Shown here: piece after piece, positions 5,015 through 52,815 of the stretch
Layout of the letters: every line of letters begins with the position of its first letter
How positions within the stretch are numbered: the stretch's first letter is position 1
Origin: Deltaproteobacteria bacterium
GTDB taxonomy: Bacteria; Myxococcota_A; Polyangia; JAAYKL01
Direction of reading: 5' to 3'
DNA length: 64,000 bases
Assembly: GCA_030595125.1 (NCBI GenBank)
Contig: JAUVDV010000014.1
Location: 1 to 64,000 of the forward strand
Made by a program: the position numbers and the translations under genes
The notes under the pieces: generated by a model
Told to the model about the DNA's origin: nothing
Databases searched by the model: none
What the model saw: only the letters and a program-made list of their open reading frames with translations

Positions 5015-5100
5015 CCGCGCCCTGAATAGGGCGCGGTCAGGATGAATGAAGCCCAGAGGGCTTGCGAAAGCGCATCGTTGCCGTGGTGTTTACGCCGCGG
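5015..5100. repeat. Four-hairpin dispersed repeat, copy A
   Basis: Four inverted repeats in fixed order. I: CCGCGCCCT/AGGGCGCGG with loop GAAT (5015-5036). II: AAGCCC/GGGCTT (5049-5063). III: TGCG/CGCA (5063-5074). IV: CCGTGGTG/CGCCGCGG with loop TTTA (5081-5100). It lies nine bases beyond the stop codon of the transglutaminase-like gene and upstream of the histidine kinase gene, so on the minus strand it would fold in the 3' end of the transglutaminase mRNA. There is no U-tract typical of a simple intrinsic terminator. Related copies are at 16478, 42515 and 52579. Confidence 0.85.
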
Positions 5101-16477: not shown

Positions 16478-16616
16478 CCGCGCCATGAATGACGCGGCAA
16501 GGATGTTGCCCGAGGCAACAAGACCCAATGGGCTTTCAAGCGGACGACAAGCCGTCCAAAACATAGTCCGCAGGACTTGTCCTATGGACATCGTTGCCGT
16601 GGGGTTCACCCCGCGG
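16478..16616. repeat. Four-hairpin dispersed repeat, copy D (extended)
   Basis: The most divergent copy. Hairpin I is CCGCGCCAT/ATGACGCGG with one mismatch (16478-16497). An extra hairpin GTTGCC/GGCAAC (16505-16519) is inserted. A GACCC/GGGCT-type hairpin II follows, then two more stems around GGACG/CGTCC and AGGAC/GTCCT. Hairpin IV is CCGTGGGG/CCCCGCGG with loop TTCA (16597-16616). The spacer CATCGTTG before hairpin IV is as in copies A and B. It lies between convergent genes, 15 bases after the stop at 16462 and 13 bases beyond the stop at 16630. Confidence 0.7.
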
Positions 16617-42499: not shown

Positions 42500-42514
42500 C
42501 TCCTACCTGCCGAT

Positions 42515-42605
42515 CCGCGCCCTGAATAGGGCGCGGTCAGGATGATCAAAGCCCAAAGGGCTTGTGTGCGAAGCGCGCATCGTTGCCGTGGCGTTTACGC
42601 CGCGG
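42515..42605. repeat. Four-hairpin dispersed repeat, copy B
   Basis: Hairpin I CCGCGCCCT/AGGGCGCGG, loop GAAT (42515-42536). Hairpin II AAGCCC/GGGCTT, loop AAA (42549-42563). Hairpin III TGTGCG/CGCGCA (42565-42579). Hairpin IV CCGTGGCG/CGCCGCGG, loop TTTA (42586-42605). It sits between convergent genes, 15 bases after the lysine-tailed lipoprotein stop and 44 bases from the nnrD stop, so both transcripts could end in it. Confidence 0.85.
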
Positions 42606-42649
42606 GACGGCCGGCCCTCCAGCACGGATACATACGGAAGGACCTTATC

Positions 42650-44215
42650 CTACCTGGACCATTCCTTCAGAATTGAGGGAAGCTCACAGATCAGATCGGA
42701 AGCAACGAGGGCGGGCTGTCCCAGTTTTTGCGCGGCGAGATCTCCGGCGTGCCCATGGATGTACGTTCCGAGGAGCGCGGCATCCAGAGGTTCGAGTCCC
42801 TGGGCAAGAAAACCGCCGATGATCCCCGAGAGCACATCTCCCATCCCGCCGCTGGCCATCCCCGGATTTCCTGTCGGATTGACGAATACACGTCCGTCCG
42901 GCGTCGCGATAACCGATCGTGAGCCCTTGAGGACGATCACCACCTTGTGCCACTTGGCGGCTTCTCTGGTGACCGAAATCCGATCGGCCTGGATCGCCGG
43001 AACGGACTTGTTGACAAGGCGCGCCATCTCCCCGGGGTGCGGTGTGAATACCATGGGAGCGGTGATTCTCCCCGCCCCGGTGGGATCCTTTGCCAGGATG
43101 TTGATCCCGTCCGCGTCCACCACTGCCGGGACCTCCATCATCTGAAGCAACCGCATGGTCAGGGCCGACACGCCGGGCGCTGTTGTGATCCCGGGTCCGA
43201 CGACCACCGCCTTCTTGTCTTCGAGGAGTTTCCCGAGGCGCTTGACCATCTTGTCCGTGATGGGCGCATCAGTCCTGTCCAGCAGGGCTTCGACCATGAC
43301 TTCGAGGCATTTTGACTCGATGACGGGCTGGGCGTTGGCGGTTGTCGCGATGGTGACCAGGCCCGTGCCGACCCGCATGGCGGAATTTCCGCACAGGACC
43401 GCGGCGCCGGTTTTCCCCAGGGATCCCGCCAGCAACAGCAGGTGACCGAAAGTGCCCTTGTGCGAATCCTCGGTTCGCATTCCGGGCAATCTGCGAAGTG
43501 GCTCCGGGTCGATCATGCTCCCGTCCCAGCCGGCCCTGTCAGACACGATGCCCGGCACGCCGATGGAGACGACCCGGATACGGCCCGCAAGCCCGGCGCC
43601 CGGATGCTGGACGAGTCCGCGTTTCAAATGACCGAAAGTTGCGGTGCCGACGGCCCTGACAACCTTGCCCCACGCAGTTCCGCTATCAGCGTCGAGCCCG
43701 GAGGGGATGTCCACCGCCAGCACGGGAACCGCGGCATCGTTGATCATGTCTATCAGGTCGCCCAAGTGACCCTCGACGTTTCTGGAAACCCCGGTGCCGA
43801 GGAGCGCATCCACCACAAACCCATCCTTGCGCAGCATTTCTGTGAGCCCGGACGCCTTGTCGGGGTCGGACACCTCCACGATGGGCGCGTCCATGGCGTG
43901 CAGGATTCCGTGGTTGAGCAGGGCATCCCCGGCGAGGTTGGAGGCCGGTACCGCCATGTAGGTTCTGACCTCGTATCCGGCGTTGAGGAGATGGCGGGCA
44001 ATGACGAATCCGTCGCCGCCGTTGTTACCCGGGCCCGCAATGACCGCGAGACGGCGCTTTTCCCCGAGGAGATCCATCGCCATCCTCGCCGCTCCCGCCC
44101 CGGCGTTCTCCATGAGGACCGGCCCGGGGATTCCGATGTCCTCGATGGCTATCCGGTCGTACTCGCGCATCTGGGCGCGGGTCATGAACAAACGGTCATT
44201 CCATTCTTCAGTCAT
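42650..44215 (-). CDS. nnrD: Bifunctional NAD(P)HX epimerase/dehydratase
   Basis: A 521-residue metabolite-repair enzyme that restores hydrated NAD(P)H. The N-terminal YjeF_N epimerase domain (about 1-215) has IAGPGNNGGDGFVIARHL. The C-terminal ribokinase-like dehydratase (about 230-520) has VVGPGITT, FTPHPGEMARL and NPGMASGGMGDVLSG with the phosphate-binding glycines. Length and order fit the fused bacterial form. The start overlaps the acpS stop by eight bases, as is common for nnrD/acpS pairs. It is the last gene of the long conserved operon. Confidence 0.95.
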   Translation of the reverse strand: MTEEWNDRLFMTRAQMREYDRIAIEDIGIPGPVLMENAGAGAARMAMDLLGEKRRLAVIAGPGNNGGDGFVIARHLLNAGYEVRTYMAVPASNLAGDALLNHGILHAMDAPIVEVSDPDKASGLTEMLRKDGFVVDALLGTGVSRNVEGHLGDLIDMINDAAVPVLAVDIPSGLDADSGTAWGKVVRAVGTATFGHLKRGLVQHPGAGLAGRIRVVSIGVPGIVSDRAGWDGSMIDPEPLRRLPGMRTEDSHKGTFGHLLLLAGSLGKTGAAVLCGNSAMRVGTGLVTIATTANAQPVIESKCLEVMVEALLDRTDAPITDKMVKRLGKLLEDKKAVVVGPGITTAPGVSALTMRLLQMMEVPAVVDADGINILAKDPTGAGRITAPMVFTPHPGEMARLVNKSVPAIQADRISVTREAAKWHKVVIVLKGSRSVIATPDGRVFVNPTGNPGMASGGMGDVLSGIIGGFLAQGLEPLDAALLGTYIHGHAGDLAAQKLGQPALVASDLICELPSILKEWSR

Positions 44216-48217: not shown

Positions 48218-49087
48218 TCACCTGATGCAGCGGAAACCAAAGTTCAAGTGGGCAGCGGACGGATCGCTGTATTGGCGAACGGTGGCTTGCAGGGCGTGGG
48301 ATGTGCTGCCGAAACTACCGCCACGACAGACCCGGTTGGAGTCGAATGGATCCTCCCATGCACTACCATCCGCCGGCGCGCCCGTATAGGTGTTGTGATA
48401 CCAATCCTGCACCCACTCCCACACGTTACCGGCCATGTCGCATAGCCCTTGGTCAGTATTCCCTGCGGTCTTGCCGCACACAGCCCACGTGCGTTCCGTA
48501 CCGCAACCATATTCTCCATTATCCATAACAGCGAGATCGCACGTAGCCATCTCATCACCCCAAGGGTACGTGATGTCCTGTCCTCCACTGCGAGCCGCGT
48601 ACTCCCACTCCGACTCAGATGGCAATCGACCTTCAACCCAAGTACAGAAGTCCACCGAATGCTGCCAAAGCACACAGTTTAAAGGATGATCCTCGTAACC
48701 GGTCTTGTCCCAGTTGCAAATAGAAAGATTGCTCGGCGCTATGCACTCCCCCGCCGTCACGCACTCACCGTACTGCGTCACCGTTACCTCCGTCTTCAAC
48801 ATTTCGAATGACGGCACTGTTACTTCGTGAATCGGCTGCGCGTCTGAATACCCCGATCCCATCTGGAAAGAACCGCCGCAAACCGATACCCATGTCGTGC
48901 CCGCCATTCCGACTGACGTTGCCCCGTCCACGCAATCATCCGTATCCGTATCTGTATCGGTGTCTGTATCGGTATCTGTATCTGTATCCGTGTCGGATGT
49001 ACCGCTGTCGGCGGCGTCCGACGAGTCGTCACCGCACCCGCCGTAAACCAGCACTGTCGCAAGTGCCATCACAAGCAAGTACCTCAT
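48218..49087 (-). CDS. SUMF-fold lipoprotein without the catalytic cysteines
   Basis: A 289-residue lipoprotein. The signal peptide ends VYGGC; nine Asp-Thr pairs follow (48941-48994 in DNA). The rest is a formylglycine-generating-enzyme (SUMF1/EgtB) fold: GGSFQMGSG, GRLPSESEWEYAARSG, YPWGDE, DMAGNVWEWVQDWY, RVCRGGSFGST. In true FGE the segment after RGGS carries two active-site cysteines; here it reads FGSTSHALQATVR, with none. It is therefore more likely a binding or structural protein than a sulfatase activator. It is bracketed by REP-like repeats on both sides. Confidence 0.85.
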   Translation of the reverse strand: MRYLLVMALATVLVYGGCGDDSSDAADSGTSDTDTDTDTDTDTDTDTDTDDCVDGATSVGMAGTTWVSVCGGSFQMGSGYSDAQPIHEVTVPSFEMLKTEVTVTQYGECVTAGECIAPSNLSICNWDKTGYEDHPLNCVLWQHSVDFCTWVEGRLPSESEWEYAARSGGQDITYPWGDEMATCDLAVMDNGEYGCGTERTWAVCGKTAGNTDQGLCDMAGNVWEWVQDWYHNTYTGAPADGSAWEDPFDSNRVCRGGSFGSTSHALQATVRQYSDPSAAHLNFGFRCIR

Positions 49088-49131
49088 TGCCCCACCTTTC
49101 TTTTTGAACGTGAGAGAATTCTAGCACTCCC

Positions 49132-51722: not shown

Positions 51723-52520
51723 ATGTCACAACTCACAGTGAATGATCATCTGAGGCAGCAGGTGGCGAGGGCGCGTGTCGCTCTGGGCGAGGCGCTCGGT
51801 CACACCCAGGAGATACGCCGGCCGGGCCTGGATGTGAGCACTGTGAGCGCATCCCTGGCGGGTGCGGTGAAGGCGCTGTTTGCGGCCGAGTCGAGCGGGC
51901 TTGCCGACGAGTCGCATGTGGGACAGTCGATGGAATACCTTCGAACAACGCTGACCCTCATGCAGGAAGTGCCGGACCAGGATGAAAAGCTGGAGATCGC
52001 TACGGCGACCGTGGCCAGGACCATGGCCATTTTGTTTCCTCTTTTCAAGGCGCTGGAGGGGCGAAAGCGCGCCGAGCCCGAGCCCATACCGCTCACTGGT
52101 GTGATTCCCGCGCGGCCACAGCAGGCTCCTATTCCGCTCTCCTCGAGGCGACGTTCCCGAGACGCAGTCTCCGACCGGGAGCGACGGGATGGAGGTCGCA
52201 GGTCTATCGAGGTGGACATCGGTATGCAGTCGGAGACTAACTTCTTTACCGGTTTCTCCCTGGACATCTCGTCGGGGGGGCTCTTCGTGTCCACATACGA
52301 TATTCTGCCTCTCGATTCCGAGGTGAATGTGAATTTCAGTCTTCCGGGCGGACCGATGATGTCGCTCACCGGACTGGTCAGGTGGGTCAGAGACTACAAC
52401 GAGATCGTGCCGGACACGGCCCCCGGGATGGGCATCATGTTCGAGGACCTCTCCGCCGAACAGGAGAACAACATCAACACCTACCTCGCTCGGAGCAACC
52501 CGCTTTTTTATGATATGTAG
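51723..52520 (+). CDS. PilZ domain protein, myxobacterial type
   Basis: A 265-residue protein. The first 130 residues are helical and unassigned. The C-terminal 120 residues are a PilZ domain, with an Arg-rich entrance (RERRDGGRRSIEVDI) and DISSGGLFVST, which together form the cyclic-di-GMP site. The ending, with GMGIMFEDLSAEQENNINTYL, matches the PilZ type common in Myxococcota. It may respond to the GGDEF-EAL protein or others. It is a single gene, with hairpin repeat copy C 58 bases downstream. Confidence 0.88.
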   Translation: MSQLTVNDHLRQQVARARVALGEALGHTQEIRRPGLDVSTVSASLAGAVKALFAAESSGLADESHVGQSMEYLRTTLTLMQEVPDQDEKLEIATATVARTMAILFPLFKALEGRKRAEPEPIPLTGVIPARPQQAPIPLSSRRRSRDAVSDRERRDGGRRSIEVDIGMQSETNFFTGFSLDISSGGLFVSTYDILPLDSEVNVNFSLPGGPMMSLTGLVRWVRDYNEIVPDTAPGMGIMFEDLSAEQENNINTYLARSNPLFYDM

Positions 52521-52578
52521 TGAGGGCAGGCCTCATTTTAGGTTCATCCGGATCCAGCCGTGCCGGCCGGCCTGTTCA

Positions 52579-52700
52579 CCGCGCCCTGATGAGGGCGCGG
52601 TCAGGATGACCTGTTCGACTGGGGGGTCACAGACGCATCCGGCCAAGCCCTTTGGGCTTGCGCGGAAACGCGCATCCTGACCGTGGCATTTATGCCGCGG
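52579..52700. repeat. Four-hairpin dispersed repeat, copy C
   Basis: Hairpin I CCGCGCCCT/AGGGCGCGG, loop GATG (52579-52600). Hairpin II AAGCCC/GGGCTT, loop TTT (52645-52659). Hairpin III TGCGCG/CGCGCA with a GAAA loop (52659-52674). Hairpin IV CCGTGGCA/TGCCGCGG, loop TTTA (52681-52700). The G-C to A-T change in hairpin IV is compensated on both arms relative to copy B. The spacer between I and II is 36 bases longer than in A and B. It lies between convergent genes. Confidence 0.85.
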
Positions 52701-52746
52701 AACGAGGGGAGGCGACCCCAACCCAGACCGCTGCGAGGAGGGGACT

Positions 52747-52789
52747 GTGGACCGAGTGGACGAAGTGGACTGAGTGGACTGTGGACGAA
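52747..52789. repeat. Short 9-bp tandem repeat
   Basis: Five consecutive units on the pattern GTGGACNGA/GTGGACGAA (one unit shortened to seven bases) between hairpin copy C and the stop of the Cys-rich lipoprotein gene. No coding role on either strand. Function unknown; likely a slippage-prone microsatellite. Confidence 0.7.
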
Positions 52790-52815
52790 GTGTACCATAA
52801 TTTGAGAGGTCCGGT

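Follow-up and report, generated by a model that had tools for sequence, protein, structure and literature searches.

The window, by which we mean the whole 64,000-nt stretch of DNA analysed here, contains four copies of a dispersed hairpin element, at positions 5015-5100, 16478-16616, 42515-42605 and 52579-52700, all on the plus strand. The 17-mer GGGCGCGGTCAGGATGA, with up to three mismatches allowed, matches the window four times, against 0.41 matches expected. A covariance model (R1), built from 20 copies in the genome with these four among them, recovers 52579-52700 with an E-value of 2.8e-23 (106.8 bits), 5015-5100 with 1.2e-21, 42515-42605 with 4.3e-21 and 16478-16616 with 1.1e-19, and sees no fifth full copy in the 64,000 nt. 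The four locations and the common orientation reported in a preliminary description of this DNA are therefore upheld, all at E-values of about 1e-19 or lower. No family scored above the gathering score in an Rfam scan, and a scan of the window for tRNA and tmRNA found none.

Every element combines two REP-like units, inverted relative to each other and placed around inner hairpins. Such a unit consists of a hairpin of 20-22 nt and a conserved octamer, and in all paired elements the two units are inverted, with the octamers facing inward. There are two main types: REP-A, CCGCGCCCTGAATAGGGCGCGG-TCAGGATG, and REP-B, for example CCGCGGCGTAAACGCCACGG-CAACGATG. The feet, located 5' of the hairpin, are CTGA in REP-A and GTTG or GTGG in REP-B, while the criterion for RAYT/REPIN systems is GTAG or GTGG. 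The copies at 5015, 42515 and 52579 are A/B heterodimers, with REP-A to the left, a B-type hairpin to the right and an interior made of AAGCCCnnnGGGCTT (hairpin II) and a small G+C stem (hairpin III). In the copy at 52579-52700, REP-A is formed by hairpin I, CCGCGCCCTGATGAGGGCGCGG, and the octamer TCAGGATG (52579-52608, plus strand). It is followed on the same strand by hairpin II, AAGCCC-TTT-GGGCTT (52645-52659), and hairpin III, TGCGCG-GAAA-CGCGCA (52659-52674), the latter read from the sequence. The right REP lies on the minus strand (52673-52700) and is formed by the octamer CATCCTGA, 5' on the plus strand, and hairpin IV, CCGTGGCATTTATGCCGCGG, which is supported by covariation. Since the two octamers are complementary, this copy is predicted to adopt a clover fold with the two REP hairpins outside; the z-score of its fold is -6.2, in a range from -2.7 to -6.6 across copies. 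The copy at 16478 has a different hairpin I, CCGCGCCATGAATGACGCGG, and extra inner hairpins; together with a group of 145-nt elements it represents further subfamilies built on the same frame. The order of hairpins I-II-III-IV, earlier ascribed to all four copies, is thus shared by three of them, while the one at 16478 departs from it.

The stems had been said to change together, as the mark of a conserved RNA or single-stranded DNA structure. For hairpin IV this is clearly so: among nine distinct 20-nt variants genome-wide, 73 of 81 cells pair, which is above the maximum of 71 reached in 2000 shuffles. The signal is weak for hairpins II and III, and none was obtained in the test of hairpin I, which is near-invariant. 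To distinguish RNA from DNA we can use the transitions that break Watson-Crick pairing. In 30 genuine hairpin variants (two false hairpins were left out), the strand that carries the octamer 5' of the hairpin shows 19 G.T and one A.C. Because many of these variants share ancestry, the raw 19:1 overstates a bias that is nevertheless clear; we estimate about eight independent G.T events to one A.C event. At the left end of the element this is the bottom strand, at the right end the top strand. Selection on a single RNA would instead predict that the tolerated mismatches are G.U on one and the same strand throughout. The observed pattern indicates that each end is constrained on its own strand, as is expected for an HUH enzyme reading a single-stranded hairpin with a 5' guide. 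The fold is thus conserved, as proposed, but the wobble pattern favours single-stranded DNA hairpins read by a transposase, TnpA, over one folded RNA.

Placement relative to genes also bears on a role in RNA. According to a crude, purpose-made gene caller, 16 of 38 copies genome-wide lie between convergent genes, 14 between tandem and three between divergent ones, and five are at contig edges or undecided; the gene pairs of the window itself are 8 convergent, 25 tandem and 8 divergent. The same caller places three of the four window copies between convergent genes, as first described, and none of the 38 within a gene. Hairpin IV faces a minus-strand stop throughout the window, but genome-wide the copies occur in both orientations. 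The T run that, with a G+C hairpin, defines an intrinsic terminator is missing at all four copies, in agreement with the preliminary description.

A terminator-like hairpin of another kind, TGAGG-gcagg-CCTCA-TTTT, is found at 52521-52539, immediately behind the stop codon of a gene that ends at 52520. In the congener G002, which lacks the element here, a similar hairpin (CACGGGCAGGCCCCGTG) is retained. In the window the terminal repeat of the inserted DNA, described below, begins immediately behind the T run, at 52541. The terminator-like hairpin precedes the insertion, and the upstream gene therefore has a candidate terminator of its own.

Given stable folds, a covarying hairpin IV and intergenic positions between many convergent gene pairs, one could see in the element a conserved RNA at mRNA 3' ends, kept as a bidirectional terminator or a stability element. 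We regard this as very improbable: the strand with the wobble pairs is not the same at the left and right ends, the orientation to genes is variable, there is no T run, and the copy at 52579 is preceded by a separate terminator-like hairpin. Further, as shown below, the insertions are species-specific, with empty sites in congeners whose genes are otherwise conserved, and the same hairpins enclose a transposase gene. A terminator or mRNA-stability function is accordingly not borne out as the reason for the element, although the elements may affect transcript ends as a side effect.

All genomes compared are fragmented metagenome-assembled genomes (MAGs), and movement is deduced from comparisons between species. 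With at most 150 candidates scored per genome, R1 finds about 124 matches in the window's own MAG of 5.39 Mb, about 55 and 28 in two congeneric deltaproteobacterial MAGs and two to seven in each of four out of five other genera of the family; these counts are approximate, as some copies are listed on both strands. The genome-wide covariance search proposed earlier as a check thus returns over 100 matches in this genome and further copies in its congeners. With a single copy as BLAST query, the family is confined to the genus among 39 genomes.

Two variants of the frame can be mentioned here. The 145-nt subfamily is homogeneous (L064 9262-9406, which is contig C113:73261-73405, and L206-L221), with octamers CAACGATG/CATCGTTG at both ends and outer flanks of about 35 nt conserved on each side; it has at least 12 copies in the window's MAG (G000) and five in the congener G001. 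In tripartite elements (L107 811-1041, at C475:8410-8640 of G001, and L014 1391-1618) a REP-B hairpin is located between two outer REP-A units, and they look like one element inserted into, or fused with, another. The tripartite copy of G001 is absent in G000 and G002.

Over the compared region the congeners are about 88-92% identical, and several of their sites are without insert; the sites of 5015 and 16478 were left out of this comparison as the congener contigs end or differ there. The clearest case is the copy at 42515: the whole insertion, 42510-42647, is absent in G001, and it is flanked in the window by a clean 9-bp target repeat, TCCTACCTG, at 42501-42509 and 42648-42656, which is present once at the empty site. 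This copy has no terminal repeats. Two copies of the transposase gene described below, on contigs C134 and C7, are missing from G002 and have the target repeats TGATTGT and CCAAATAAT, respectively. With TATTTTTTT at L057, and L051, which is located in a T run and is counted as the fifth site, target repeats of 7-9 bp are seen at five insertion sites. In the same comparison no clear target repeat is found at L004, L026, L045, L060, L129, L148 or 52579. At L006, G001 also carries the insertion and G002 a part of it, which marks this insertion as older. The copy at 52579 is part of a larger insertion, 52541-52807, that is absent from the orthologous site of G002. Its left end is an exact match to a 22-bp terminal repeat, GGTTCATCCGGATCCAGCCGTG (52541-52562, plus strand), and to the right of 52700 it continues as a G+C-rich tail.

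The origin of this terminal repeat becomes apparent from the Y1_Tnp genes, of which the genome has eight. Five are closely related (87-98% identical) and encode TnpA-A, a protein of 138 aa. Each of these genes is enclosed by a pair of REP-A units in inverted orientation and has hairpin II on either side, although the left hairpin is truncated in the C162 copy. A full A element measures about 725 bp and has the 22-bp sequence GGTTCATCCGGATCCAGCCGTG as an inverted repeat at its ends, 38 or 68 nt outside the hairpins, which are therefore subterminal at both ends. In four tnpA-A copies dN/dS is 0.05-0.20, a ratio that points to purifying selection. The sixth gene, tnpA-B, whose product is 53% identical to the TnpA-A group, lies between REP-B units. 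Its surroundings (L058 1824-2565, contig C91) contain four REP-B units, of which three are in direct order, and thus amount to a small cluster, not just one pair. The left REP of the heterodimers matches the ends of TnpA-A elements, and the right one those of TnpA-B.

Both proteins are above the cut-offs of PF01797 and NF033573. They score 76.5 and 67.1 bits with the IS200/IS605 model of NCBIfam (cut-off 55), but only 17.5 and 17.2 bits with the RAYT model (cut-off 80), and IS608 and ISDra2 TnpA are recognisable as relatives of known structure. The tyrosine motif is YIRNQRKHH in TnpA-A, which fits Y---Q--HH, and YIRNQWKRH in TnpA-B, one residue off. TnpA relatives that are 53-59% identical, found in G001 as well as in three further genera of the family, have flanking hairpins of their own; examples of the feet are ATCGTAA, ATCCTGT, ATCGTTG and ATTTCTGG. 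The transposase and the hairpin type thus vary in concert.

The remaining two Y1 proteins, L037 (C83) and L038 (C64), are longer, with open frames of about 300 aa. The best match of L038 is the RAYT model, at a score below its cut-off. Both were rejected as partners of the elements, as no hairpins of the TnpA/REP family are found near either gene. With such genes present, the elements might be REPINs of the ordinary sort, mobilised by a class-2 RAYT that this genome encodes, and the layout of inverted REP pairs, heterodimers and a clover fold is indeed that of REPINs and BIMEs. We find this exceedingly improbable, given the lack of hairpins at the two long genes, the low RAYT scores of the TnpAs that do have them, and the fact that tnpA-A is multi-copy and apparently itself mobile.

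Between the full elements and the short copies there is a series of deletions. The distance between the outer hairpins is 619-620, 486, 344, 338 or 264 bp, and in the shorter forms (486 bp and below) parts of tnpA are left along with the two ends. The deletion junction 276|408 is common to four loci (C106, C175, C120 and C25), and another, 242|452, is shared by two species (G000 and G002). Recurrence at four loci and in two species indicates that deletion came first and mobilisation of the shortened forms followed. The window copies can be read as the last step of this series, where the two ends are left and the gene is lost.

Taken together, these sequence comparisons make it probable that the elements are non-autonomous mobile DNAs of the TnpA/REP family, derived by loss of tnpA and spread in trans. 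Most likely, they are miniature elements moved by the genome's own single-strand-DNA transposase, whose gene lies within longer elements that share the hairpin ends. The original suggestion of a REPIN-like non-autonomous mobile element is thereby strengthened by the associated transposase genes, the series of deletions, unoccupied sites in the congeners and the target duplications. In the proposed scheme, the gene of the IS200-class Y1/HUH TnpA-A lies between two inverted REP-like hairpins with the octamer CATCCTGA, read 5' of the hairpin, pointing inward, and internal deletions that remove it would have yielded miniature elements of about 90-490 bp. Pairing of ends would be mosaic, an A end being combined either with a second A end or with a B-type end as found around TnpA-B. 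TnpA would recognise each hairpin as single-stranded DNA, guided by the nucleotides 5' of its foot, and move the miniature forms. Acting in trans, it would spread these forms to intergenic positions, mainly to gene 3' ends and A/T runs.

Some observations do not fit this reading well: several empty sites show no target repeat, and most miniature A/B copies lack terminal repeats, while full A elements have both terminal and target repeats. IS200/IS605 elements are described without either feature, and a part of the chemistry is thus unexplained by the known TnpA mechanism. The main rival starts from here. An unseen DDE transposase could recognise the 22-bp repeats, make the 7-9-bp duplications and move the elements as MITE-like passengers, with hairpins and tnpA as mere cargo. 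Terminal repeats on both sides of the full copies, as well as target repeats at five sites, are usual for DDE enzymes and atypical of IS200/IS605. However, no other transposase gene is seen at terminal repeats in the three incomplete MAGs, where the genuine occurrences of the repeat adjoin REP hairpins or their remnants. The copy at 42515 has its clean 9-bp duplication without any terminal repeat. Further, a DDE helper leaves unexplained both the strand-specific constraint on the hairpins and the pairing of tnpA with hairpins across genera. We therefore judge it unlikely, and retain movement by TnpA as the preferred explanation.

The closest known kinds are REPIN/RAYT and IS200/IS605, and neither fits fully. 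REPINs or BIMEs with their RAYT, as in Pseudomonas fluorescens SBW25 (PMC3116915) and the E. coli REPtron (PMC6006769), share with our elements the inverted REP doublets with variable spacer, heterodimers, many extragenic copies, a flanked Y1 gene, a conserved 5' foot and the clover fold. In contrast to RAYTs, which usually have one copy per REP type, the transposase here is IS200-class, present in five copies and apparently self-mobile; the elements also differ by terminal and target repeats, inward octamers and the feet CTGA, GTTG and GTGG instead of GTAG. As the class-2 model was tried and the TnpAs fall below its cut-off, we do not class them as RAYT/REPIN. IS200/IS605 elements such as IS608 and ISDra2 are alike in having an HUH/Y1 TnpA of some 140 aa, a hairpin close to each end, A/T-rich target sites and a length comparable to the 725 bp found here. 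That group is also characterised by a single-strand circular intermediate and guide-directed cleavage, a trait on which the present analysis covered the strand bias of stem mismatches. Here, however, the hairpins are inverted copies and the constrained strand differs between the ends. The inverted ends, together with the 22-bp terminal and 7-9-bp target repeats, are the reason not to class them as ordinary IS200/IS605, from which the large miniature progeny also sets them apart.

The nearest described IS605 derivatives are the PATEs of Haloquadratum walsbyi (PMC3119063), which are non-coding, formed by core deletion and provided with near-terminal palindromes; they have no terminal repeats or target duplications, unlike the elements here. 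TIRYTs (PMC3733652) are also Y1 genes between terminal inverted repeats, but their repeat motif GGGGWSAS is not seen in our elements. The REP-A foot CTGA fits the CnGA of TnpA-Y1 class 3, an intermediate between IS and REPtron (PMC6006769), while the TnpA here lacks the YVxxEQ motif and the length of that class. Subclass 1.2 (Quentin et al. 2018, PMC6006769) is similar in its short IS200-class protein and a tyrosine motif close to Y---Q--HH. It is described as low-copy, without IS or REP features and mostly from Cyanobacteria and Bacteroidetes; here there are five apparently mobile copies with hairpins and empty sites, in Deltaproteobacteria.

What is new is the combination of an IS200-class enzyme with a REPIN-like layout and unexpected terminal repeats and target duplications, the last two of which pose a mechanistic question. 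How REPINs and their single-copy RAYTs arose from an IS200-like ancestor, and why RAYTs stopped moving themselves, is an open question (PMC3116915). In this family an apparently still-mobile IS200-class transposase shares inverted hairpin ends with a large miniature population, with related systems in other genera. The family forms a bridge between simple jumping genes of the IS200 type and the REP/REPIN repeats known from other bacteria. Subclass 1.2 would gain candidate substrates. It is possible, although we hold this only tentatively, that a subclass 1.2-like IS200-class Y1 enzyme uses inverted REPIN-like ends and makes 7-9-bp duplications, which would make it a still-mobile intermediate between IS200 and RAYT/REPIN and an undescribed variant of single-strand transposition.

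Finally, a separate repeat is present in the window. Sequences matching the region 48939-49126 occur at dozens of positions in both congeners; the region resembles the beginning of a gene of lipoprotein type, with repeats rich in Asp, Thr and Ser (DTDSDTDSDS), belonging to a large family in the genus.
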